This document shows, piece by piece, positions 17,786 to 19,829 of a stretch of 64,000 nucleotides of DNA. The stretch is taken from NCBI RefSeq assembly GCF_900119165.1, contig NZ_FPJG01000006.1, positions 9,051,763 to 9,115,762 of the forward strand. Reading direction: 5' to 3'. The translations under genes were made by a program, and so were the position numbers. Numbering within the stretch: the first letter of the stretch is position 1; every line of letters starts with the position of its first letter. This stretch comes from Amycolatopsis australiensis. Its GTDB lineage: Bacteria > Actinomycetota > Actinomycetes > Mycobacteriales > Pseudonocardiaceae. Below the pieces are notes generated by a model. It did no database searches. It saw only the letters and a program-made list of their open reading frames with translations, and had not been told where the DNA came from.

Positions 17786-18289
17786 TCATTCGTGCGGCAC
17801 CGGCCGGCCCGGCTGCTCCCCGCCCCGAGTCTCCCCGTACGAGCGCTTCGGCACCATCACCTTCCGCCGGAACGTGCACACGATCGTGCCGTCCTGCTTG
17901 TAGCCGCGCGTCTCGACGTACACGACGCCCCGGTCGTCCTTGGACTTCGACGGCGTCTTGTCCAGCACCTCGGTCTCGCCGTAGATGGTGTCGCCGTGGA
18001 AGGTCGGCTTCACGTGCTTGAGCGACTCGACCTCGAGGTTCGCGATGGCCTTGCCGGAGACGTCGGGCACGGACATGCCCAGCAGCAGCGAGTAGACGTA
18101 GTTGCCGACCACGACGTTCTTGCCGAAGTCGGTCGTCTCCTCCGCGTAGTGCGCGTCGAGGTGCAGCGGGTGGTGGTTCATGGTGAGCAGGCAGAACAGG
18201 TGGTCGTCGTATTCGGTGACCGTTTTGCCCGGCCAGTGCTTGTAGACCGCACCGACCTCGAACTCCTCGTAGTACCGACCGAACTGCAC
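17786..18289 (-). CDS. MaoC-like hot-dog fold dehydratase
   Basis: A 167-residue single hot-dog domain protein: FGRYYEEFEVGAVYKHWPG, then TMNHHPLHLDAHYAEETTDFG (the hydratase-2 motif region with Asp and His), and VVVGNYVYSLLLG. It probably hydrates or dehydrates an enoyl-CoA. The last 20 residues are a charged tail. It is divergent from corA across about 310 bases and leads an operon with the DUF2332 gene. Confidence 0.85.
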   Translation of the reverse strand: MQFGRYYEEFEVGAVYKHWPGKTVTEYDDHLFCLLTMNHHPLHLDAHYAEETTDFGKNVVVGNYVYSLLLGMSVPDVSGKAIANLEVESLKHVKPTFHGDTIYGETEVLDKTPSKSKDDRGVVYVETRGYKQDGTIVCTFRRKVMVPKRSYGETRGGEQPGRPVPHE

Positions 18290-18410
18290 TCGTCATCTCC
18301 CGTCGCGTAACACCGCGTGAGGCTGGTACGACACGCATCCGTAGTGAGGAGTACCCTCAACCATTGGTTCTCGCGCGTCAACGCGAGCCCCACCACTCTC
18401 CACCCGGCCC

Positions 18411-18550
18411 GAAGGAGGTGAGGAACCCCGATGAGTAGTGGCGATAGTCCGCTCCCTAGTAGTCCCAGCGTTCCCACCTCACGGGTCTTCTCCAGGTAGG
18501 CCTTTCCTTCCCGGGAACGCTGGTGTCGCCGGGCGGACGCGGTTCCGCCC
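18411..18550 (+). promoter_or_regulatory. structured leader of corA with uORF and mutually exclusive pairings
   Basis: This is the core of the roughly 240-base corA leader. It contains a double Shine-Dalgarno run GGAGGTGAGG (18414-18423) and the uORF at 18431-18499. An 11-bp stem, CCAGCGTTCCC (18465-18475, inside the uORF) with GGGAACGCTGG (18513-18523), follows, then a GGGCGGA/TCCGCCC hairpin (18531-18550). GTGAGG at 18418-18423 can pair with CCTCAC at 18477-18482 in the loop of the long stem. Ribosomes on the uORF would melt the long stem. This is the layout of a translation-coupled attenuator. It does not obviously match the M-box consensus beyond AGGTGAGG. Confidence 0.55.
18431..18499 (+). 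CDS. 22-residue Pro/Ser-rich leader peptide of corA (candidate)
   Basis: ATG 18431 to TAG 18497-18499 encodes 22 residues beginning MSSGDSPLPSS and ending TSRVFSR. Prolines stand at positions 7, 9, 12 and 15, following an acidic residue, with basic residues at the end. GAGG lies seven bases and GGAGG twelve bases upstream of the ATG. The D-x-P-L-P start and basic end recall the composition of the Salmonella MgtL leader, which senses Mg2+ through ribosome behaviour; homology is not implied. Codons 12-15 form one arm of the leader hairpin. Confidence 0.5.
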   Translation: MSSGDSPLPSSPSVPTSRVFSR

Positions 18551-18597
18551 CTGGTCAGTCGTCTCGCACGACCAACGCACGACGCCCAGGAGATCCC

Positions 18598-19680
18598 ATG
18601 CCTGCCATTCCCTCGCTCGGCGGCCTGCGCGGCCGCGGCAACAAGGGCACCGTCCCCGTGCGGCCGGTCCCGGTGCCGCTGTCCGCGTACGTCGTCGACT
18701 GCGCGGTGTACGTCGGCGGCGAGCGCCTGCCCGGCCGCTGGACCCACACCGAAGCGATCAAAGAGGTCCGCAAGCGGCACGAGGGGTTCGTCTGGATCGG
18801 GCTGCACGAGCCCGACGCCGACCAGATCCAGGGCATCGCCGAGACGTTCGGGCTGCACGAGCTGGCGGTCGAGGACGCGCTCGAAGCGCACCAGCGGCCG
18901 AAGCTGGAGCGCTACGACGACACGCTGTTCCTCGTGGTCAAGACCGTCCGGTACGTCGAACACGAGTCCCCCACCACGGCGAACGAGATCGTCGAGACCG
19001 GCGAGCTGATGGTGTTCCTCGGCCGGGACTTCGTCATCACCGTCCGGCACGGGAACCACTCCGGGCTGGCGCGGCTGCGCCGCGAGCTCGACGAGGACCC
19101 CGAGCGGCTGCAGCTGGGGCCGGCCGCGGTCGTGCACGCGATCGCCGACCACGTCGTCGACCACTACCTCGACGTCACCGGCCGGATCGAGAACGACATC
19201 GACGTGATGGAGGCGCAGGTCTTCGCGCCGCGCTCGCAGATCAGCGCCGAGCAGATCTACCTGATGAAACGGGAGGTCCTCGAGCTGCGCCGCGCGGTGA
19301 TGCCGCTCGCGACGCCGGTCCAGCGGCTGGCCGAGGGCTACACGCGCCTGGTGCCGGACGAGGTCCGCTCCTACTTCCGCGACGTCGCCGACCACCTCAC
19401 GACCGTGTCCGAGCGGGTGGCGGCGTTCGACGAGCTGCTGTCCACACTGGTCGACGCGACCGTCGCGAAGATCTCGCTGCAGCAGAACACCGACATGCGC
19501 AAGATCACGTCGTGGGCGGCGATCATCACCGTGCCGACGATGATCGCCGGCATCTACGGGATGAACTTCGACTACCTGCCCGAGCTGCACTGGAAGTTCG
19601 GGTACCCGCTGGTGATCACCGTGATCCTGGCGATCTGCCTGTTGCTGTACCGAATATTCCGGAAGAACGGCTGGCTATAG
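18598..19680 (+). CDS. corA: CorA-type magnesium/cobalt channel
   Basis: A 360-residue CorA. The cytoplasmic domain (residues about 30-290) has the FVWIGLHEP strand and long helices VVDHYLDVTGRIENDIDVME and AEQIYLMKREVLELRR. It is followed by the signature YGMNFDYLPEL between two C-terminal membrane helices. The pore motif GMN is intact, so a functional pentameric Mg2+ channel is expected. AGGAG lies five bases upstream of ATG 18598. It is preceded by a structured leader with a uORF and followed by a tiny membrane peptide. It corresponds in position to Rv1239c beside the lpqY-sugABC block. Confidence 0.93.
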   Translation: MPAIPSLGGLRGRGNKGTVPVRPVPVPLSAYVVDCAVYVGGERLPGRWTHTEAIKEVRKRHEGFVWIGLHEPDADQIQGIAETFGLHELAVEDALEAHQRPKLERYDDTLFLVVKTVRYVEHESPTTANEIVETGELMVFLGRDFVITVRHGNHSGLARLRRELDEDPERLQLGPAAVVHAIADHVVDHYLDVTGRIENDIDVMEAQVFAPRSQISAEQIYLMKREVLELRRAVMPLATPVQRLAEGYTRLVPDEVRSYFRDVADHLTTVSERVAAFDELLSTLVDATVAKISLQQNTDMRKITSWAAIITVPTMIAGIYGMNFDYLPELHWKFGYPLVITVILAICLLLYRIFRKNGWL

Positions 19681-19712: not shown

Positions 19713-19829
19713 ATGCCTCGCATGCTGTCCAACCTCAAGTTCTGGGCGCTCGCGCTCAGCGTGCTGTGGATCTTCGTCATCACTTTCGTCATCGTCGCCG
19801 ACCCCGGGTTCGCGCACGGCATGAAGTGA
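19713..19829 (+). CDS. 38-residue single-pass membrane peptide downstream of corA
   Basis: ATG 19713 has GGAG eight bases upstream and encodes 38 residues: a basic head MPRMLSNLKF, a hydrophobic helix WALALSVLWIFVITFVIVA, and a short tail DPGFAHGMK. It begins 32 bases after the corA stop on the same strand. Its good ribosome site and clean transmembrane composition argue that it is real. The function is unknown; by position it could modulate the channel. Confidence 0.55.
   Translation: MPRMLSNLKFWALALSVLWIFVITFVIVADPGFAHGMK

Follow-up and report, generated by a model that had tools for sequence, protein, structure and literature searches.

The magnesium transporter gene corA of Amycolatopsis australiensis is preceded by a leader that probably helps to set magnesium uptake. 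The leader lies within the 64,000-nucleotide stretch of contig NZ_FPJG01000006.1 analyzed here (the window, whose numbering is used throughout) and contains a short upstream open reading frame (uORF). Three leader segments can form two alternative pairings: the first holds the Shine-Dalgarno (SD) sequence of the uORF, the second lies inside the frame and the third follows its stop codon. Because the leader combines a ribosome site with a complement to that site within the frame and a competing segment past the stop, it is read as a cis-acting RNA switch that would depend on uORF translation and be comparable to the corL and mgtL leaders. From the comparative sequence evidence, this reading is given a probability of about 0.5.

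The uORF starts with ATG at 18431 and runs on the plus strand for 22 codons followed by TAG (18431–18499; peptide MSSGDSPLPSSPSVPTSRVFSR). It is supported by the sequence, by frame conservation and by the covariance models R1 and R2 described below. Segment 1 (GGAGGTGAGGAAC, 18414–18426, plus strand) comprises the SD (GGAGGTGAGG, 18414–18423) and the next bases, and GGAGGTGAG within it is nearly invariant in leader alignments A1 and A2. Segment 2, the core (18465–18480, plus strand), lies within the uORF; its CCAGCGTTCCC pairs with segment 3 and its GTTCCCACCTC with segment 1. Segment 3 (GGGAACGCTGG, 18513–18523, plus strand) is defined by conserved complementarity. The downstream gene, corA (18598–19680, plus strand, ATG at 18598), encodes a 360-residue CorA-type Mg2+ transporter (PF01544, E 1.8e-62) containing YGMNF, which we take to be the CorA signature.

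The uORF is a conserved feature of corA leaders. The set read here comprises 122 leaders, 110 from loci with corA and 12 further leaders from the family, with some genomes fetched twice. An SD-preceded uORF is present in 116 of them, in agreement with the earlier note on this DNA, which had described a 22-codon frame with a good ribosome site. L093, L095, L097, L101 and L103 yielded none, and the region is masked in L106. In the first four, CorA aligns only from residue 20–22 onward, so these may belong to another corA paralog type; L103 comes from a metagenome bin labelled Melainabacteria. The peptides are clade-specific: most Amycolatopsis and Prauserella encode MSSGDSPLPSS.., Actinokineospora MSDPHGHDNATGCSST.. 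and Kibdelosporangium MSGTDSAPST... Beyond the first residues and an S-T core, they vary in sequence and in length (8 to 43 residues).

The position of the core follows the reading frame. A core of type (N)GC GTY occurs in 112 of the 122 leaders, and a different core accompanies the uORF in L088, L114, L115 and L118. The core shares the frame of the first start codon that follows the SD in 55 of 58 distinct stretches, at ten in-frame distances from 27 to 63 nucleotides, a count made after 17 of the 122 loci had been dropped for failing a simple pattern. In L083 and L102 it is in frame with the next start codon, and in L042 a long insertion keeps the uORF frame. L114, L115 and L118 also carry in-frame CCGCTCAGTACN-like repeats that lengthen the uORF by whole codons.

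The start of the peptide is also constrained. An acidic residue followed closely by proline ([DE]-x(0-3)-Pro) is found in 47 of 57 distinct uORF N-termini, many of them related, against 26.0 ± 3.3 in within-peptide shuffles (0/1000 as high) and 8 of 32 control ORF starts. The likeness to MgtL that had been noticed in the window peptide thus holds for most of the distinct N-termini.

Possible competing pairings of the leader RNA

The pairing of segments 2 and 3 (2:3) is well supported by sequence comparison. It forms an 11-bp stem between CCAGCGTTCCC (18465–18475) and GGGAACGCTGG (18513–18523), the 5′ arm of which spans uORF codons 12–15, exactly as first described. Against shuffled downstream sequence, the pairing has a mean z of −2.84 over 98 leaders, 66 of which fall within the best 5% and 45 within the best 1%. 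Partners from the same genome also pair more strongly than swapped ones (−19.27 versus −16.51 kcal/mol; 0/5000 permutations). A structure-guided covariance model was used instead of a plain alignment because the latter misaligns segment 3 between clades. In the alignment fitted to the structure, 92.1% of cells are paired, seven of the 11 pairs show double changes, and double-change cells number 24 compared with 6.1 in shuffles (0/500). One such double change converts T:A to C:G between clades in the segment 3 stem. Both the uORF frame and the stem are thus conserved among relatives in Pseudonocardiaceae.

The pairing of segments 1 and 2 (1:2) joins 18470–18480 to about 18414–18426 and takes up part of the 5′ arm of the 11-bp stem. 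The two pairings are mutually exclusive because both use the same uORF bases. In the compared leaders 1:2 is conserved in position, and the minimum-energy fold of the window leader contains it. Its own-genome partners score −18.18 against −16.81 for swapped ones (0/5000 permutations). An instructive case is L114, from a Saccharomonospora-like genus (an inferred label), in which the core has been replaced and, by eye, all three segments have changed together. The new core is matched, again by eye, on the SD side (GTGAGGAA with TTCCTCAC) and on the downstream side (ACCGCTTCC with GGAAGCGGT). An automatic test of the SD side placed two of three L114-like leaders within 5% of shuffles.

Taxonomic range and the M-box link

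Two covariance models, both built from corA leaders, were used to follow the element across genomes. R1 was made from 25 non-Amycolatopsis leaders and R2 from 48 leaders. R1, which holds no Amycolatopsis sequence, recovers the window leader at E 2e-5 in a whole-genome search. It matched 11 of 150 genomes of the order at E ≤ 0.01, each just upstream of corA and one in a second family (G101). R2 matched 209 of 249 Pseudonocardiaceae genomes and 41 of 46 genera at E ≤ 0.05; some of these genomes supplied leaders to the model, and position relative to corA was compared only where corA coordinates were known.

At class level the signal is sparser. Outside Mycobacterium, three weak R2 loci lie at corA (L188, L192, L197), and 9 of 12 inspected non-mycobacterial loci were rejected as chance matches, since tblastn shows no CorA there. 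A matching uORF was recognized by pattern in 22 of 60 class-level corA leaders, including 16 of 24 from the large-genome genus f33/g74, which is probably Streptomyces. In one corA paralog of this genus, a 15- to 24-codon MDRSRPCSTTRSSGR-like uORF is located about 300–440 nucleotides upstream of the aligned start (L244, L246, L248, L251, L253–L257, L259–L262, L299–L301). R2 matched 23 of 28 loci picked for such uORFs at E < 0.01, one of the 28 (L147) being a sequence from which R2 was built; the five f31 loci were unmatched. Among 38 of the other loci R2 matched two, both from f33.

R2 also matches in six Mycobacterium-like genomes, away from corA in the five with known corA coordinates. Each of the five such loci examined lies behind an M-box riboswitch (E ≤ 1e-32). 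Across 60 Mycobacterium-like genomes, 78 M-boxes were listed in 29 genomes and 39 R2 matches in 21, and 36 of these 39 matches follow a same-strand M-box at a distance of 64–81 nucleotides. Because R2 was made from corA leaders only, its matches behind M-boxes provide an independent Mg2+ link for this type of uORF. The flanks of 30 M-box loci were fetched: 26 contain a uORF, two contain none and two were too short to be read. Typical peptides are MSSGDSPSRYLTSVP.. and MSSSDSPDRSPN... These uORFs share with the window peptide (MSSGDSP) a conserved SD and proline at position 7, and the MSSGDSP N-terminus itself is common to Amycolatopsis corA uORFs and some of the mycobacterial ones.

The mycobacterial frames fit the description of uORF2/Rv1805A, an assignment that rests on position and on the published description. 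In the available part of that report, uORF2 is translated in lacZ fusions, proline at position 7 is recorded, the function of uORF2/Rv1805A is termed unclear and the peptide is termed mycobacteria-specific (PMC12810186). An IleRS-like frame follows in four of nine of these M-box loci, and the two that were checked are class-I tRNA synthetases (PF00133); such neighbors fit the rv1535-type context in the accessible text (PMC12810186). The M-box uORFs found here resemble the corA uORF in SD, start region and MSS-x-DSP-type N-terminus. The published uORF2 differs in that it follows an M-box, precedes pe/ppe, rv1535-like or other genes, and has its anti-SD upstream of the uORF rather than inside it, as far as that partial source goes (PMC12810186). 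The corA leader does not lie downstream of an M-box: there is no RF00380 match in 18290–18620 at E ≤ 5 and none was found in the genome of the window, and M-boxes occur in only two of 60 Pseudonocardiaceae genomes (loci L238–L242). Rv0115A is itself an exception to this location in the part of the report consulted (PMC12810186). A relationship between uORF2/Rv1805A and the corA uORF is probable, and the corA leaders argue against a mycobacteria-only status of this peptide type.

A proposed switch, its rivals and its parallels

Ribosomes initiating on the uORF would keep segment 1 open. At low Mg2+, they might falter at the early Asp-x-Pro codons (codons 5–9), short of segment 2, as ribosomes do on MgtL; segment 2 would then be free, 2:3 would form and corA would be expressed. 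At high Mg2+, ribosomes would traverse segment 2 and open 2:3, lowering corA, either by leaving the leader open to early termination, which may depend on Rho, or by closing the corA start. Which way the switch turns is guessed from the analogy with corL and mgtL. Translation of the uORF in Pseudonocardiaceae, a response to Mg2+ and the final step to corA are inferred as well. That corA output is coupled to uORF translation is more certain than that the ribosome senses Mg2+. A wider proposal is more tentative and falls somewhat short of even odds: an actinobacterial Mg2+ sensor that works without an M-box and derives from a single ancient uORF module, with the faltering ribosome as sensor and the three-segment switch as read-out. 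This module would have stayed in front of corA in Pseudonocardiaceae and further actinomycete families, and in mycobacteria it would have come to lie behind M-boxes.

Several results weigh against a translation-dependent switch. Ten of the 57 N-termini lack the Asp-Pro pattern, and L120 has its core in the frame of a GTG alone, out of frame with a family-like ATG. Folding of the window leader alone gives a z of −1.50, with 14 of 200 shuffles as good, which is not significant. Covariation of 2:3 is weak in the non-Amycolatopsis alignment that was not fitted to the structure (two pairs, three cells; 57/500 shuffles as high), and the RNAalifold consensus of the plain MAFFT alignment A1 contains five 1:2 pairs only, with zero double changes. 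Pairing 1:2 does not exceed what dinucleotide-shuffled uORF bodies give (median fraction 0.158 over 96 leaders, 24 of them within 5%), nor does a signal emerge from the f33 or Mycobacterium sets in the same comparison. Within the Amycolatopsis-type (GTT) group, own and swapped 1:2 partners are equal (−17.87 and −17.98); the swap signal given above therefore reflects mainly one deep double change between clades. The earlier proposal that the loop of the stem pairs with the uORF SD thus survives in part: the pairing is possible and its position conserved, but it competes with the stem and does not exceed shuffled uORFs. The excess of C over G, used as a proxy for a Rho site, is modest (top 2.2% of windows). 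No consistent pairing between the uORF end and the corA SD was found across the leaders, and this candidate was rejected (own −15.50 versus swapped −15.52 in Amycolatopsis-type leaders; own −13.55, weaker than −14.52, in other clades).

An unlikely alternative, which nevertheless accounts for part of the conservation, is that the switch responds to how many ribosomes are available, or how often they initiate, and not to Mg2+ itself. Plentiful ribosomes would translate the uORF, keep 1:2 open and match corA to the ribosome load, the main Mg2+ store. This would suit a leader whose best-conserved parts include the ribosome site, in which the complement to that site holds its place and the peptide sequence varies widely between clades, yet it leaves both the recurring Asp-x-Pro start and the association with M-boxes unexplained.

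It is quite improbable that the leader is instead a structured RNA with a direct binding site for a metal ion or some other ligand, and that its open frame is incidental. Codons 3, 5, 6 and 7 do not vary at any base in 63 loci (selected for the SSGDSPL peptide), the AGT(A) core is kept across clades, and L120 keeps it despite its frame, all of which would fit such a riboswitch. In the same selected loci, codon identity among same-residue pairs is complete at six of 15 uORF codons (0.999 at a seventh) versus 14% of corA positions, which suggests a codon-level constraint only somewhat above that of corA. The frame is nevertheless kept over distances of 27 to 63 nucleotides and through an in-frame insertion and repeats, the single-sequence folding is weak, and the mycobacterial relative is translated (PMC12810186, seen in part). 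A known riboswitch was rejected, as Rfam gives no hit anywhere in the window at gathering scores or in the leader at E ≤ 5; neither an M-box nor any other Rfam family explains the leader. An amino-acid attenuator was also rejected: corA is not a biosynthetic gene, and the intrinsic terminator scan of 18000–19000 was empty, with no terminator-like site there. Similarly doubtful is a peptide acting in trans, for instance on CorA or another transporter, as hypothesized for Rv1805A in the available text of PMC12810186: the MSSGDSP start shared by corA and M-box uORFs would fit, but the variable remainder of the peptide does not, nor does its hydrophilic start, with 0.49 large hydrophobic residues at positions 2–11 versus 2.62 in 32 control N-termini.

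The proposed uORF-dependent switch has a close functional parallel in corL-corA of Escherichia coli and Salmonella. In the available part of PMC11552253, that leader likewise holds a uORF ahead of an Mg2+ transporter gene; it has two exclusive structures and a stem that can sequester the uORF SD, features that the window leader may share. In E. coli, corA expression falls as corL is translated and rises as it is not, with a part played by Rho. The window leader differs in being actinobacterial, in having a uORF core that itself pairs beyond the stop and in showing no detected sequence relation, and corL has few acidic or proline residues in the part of that report seen (PMC11552253). The mgtL leader peptide of mgtA shares the early acidic residue followed by proline, a combination that makes MgtL translation fail at low Mg2+ according to the accessible portion of PMC11282234; transporter, sequence and structure are different, and MgtL has EPDP where the corA uORF has D-x(0-3)-P. 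The corA leader has two corL/mgtL-type traits by sequence: a short conserved ORF before an Mg2+ transporter gene, and an early acidic residue with proline. Membership is not claimed because no sequence relation was found; that the leader may work like corL or mgtL is a statement about mechanism, made by analogy.

Two other leaders are less similar. The "corA motif" of Stav et al. 2019 is a candidate cis-regulatory RNA upstream of corA, restricted to Gammaproteobacteria in the part of the source consulted (PMC6429828); the window leader has no Rfam match, a result that covers the motif only if Rfam includes it. The ilvB uORF of Corynebacterium likewise combines a uORF with alternative stems in an actinobacterial leader, but it contains branched-chain amino-acid codons and an intrinsic terminator, according to the available text (PMC11109978), whereas no terminator-like site occurs in the corA leader. 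The earlier note knew of no comparable system, which must be qualified by corL-corA as a parallel (PMC11552253, in part) and by uORF2/Rv1805A as a probable relative (PMC12810186, in part). The open-licence literature searched holds no described actinobacterial corA uORF leader. Within that literature the leader is previously undescribed, while its kind, a uORF-controlled Mg2+ transporter leader, is already known.

The leader bears on the control of a housekeeping-type Mg2+ transporter gene in actinobacteria that lack M-boxes. If the proposed switch is correct, it would add to enterobacterial corL a second, apparently unrelated example of a uORF that controls corA. If the uORF is a cis-regulatory frame shared with corA leaders, the role of the M-box-linked uORF2/Rv1805A becomes testable, and the ancient-module proposal, if true, would also explain the purpose of Rv1805A-type uORFs.

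Other elements of the leader region

The whole leader is contained in a 308-base region that separates corA from a divergent MaoC-like dehydratase gene (17786–18289, minus strand; PF19315/PF01575), which forms its 5′ bound. A −10-like promoter element, TACCCT (18352–18357, plus strand), is kept in relatives as GTANNNT, which 99 of 100 distinct leaders have within 130 nucleotides upstream of the uORF SD (median −62). Transcription of corA would start a few bases 3′ of this element, at about 18360–18364. The place of the element ahead of the uORF bears indirectly on a start beyond 18431, which the earlier note had named as a refutation; a sigma-70 consensus scan of 18000–19000 was empty. Upstream of the uORF lies a 5′ hairpin, CTCGCG-CGTCAA-CGCGAG (18370–18387, plus strand), with comparable hairpins in relatives by eye. 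Two more hairpins separate segment 3 from corA on the plus strand. The first of these, hairpin 2 (GGGCGGA...TCCGCCC, 18531–18550), had been seen in the earlier note and has a GCCGG..CCGGC-type consensus in A1. Hairpin 3 (GTCGT-CTCGC-ACGAC, 18558–18572) is a new addition, with a GTCGT..CGACG consensus in the same alignment. The corA SD, AGGAG (18588–18592, plus strand), includes a GGAG that is nearly invariant in A1. The motif YYCCTGG occurs in the last uORF codons of 15 of 52 Amycolatopsis-type leaders (L003, L004, L010, L011 and others) and is complementary to CCAGG.. of the corA SD.

Directly 3′ of corA, positions 19713–19829 on the plus strand encode a 38-residue protein that has a single hydrophobic stretch (MPRMLSNLKFWALALSVLWIFVITFVIVADPGFAHGMK). 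In 92 of 110 corA loci, tblastn places it on the same strand no more than 300 nucleotides past corA; it may be a small partner of CorA.
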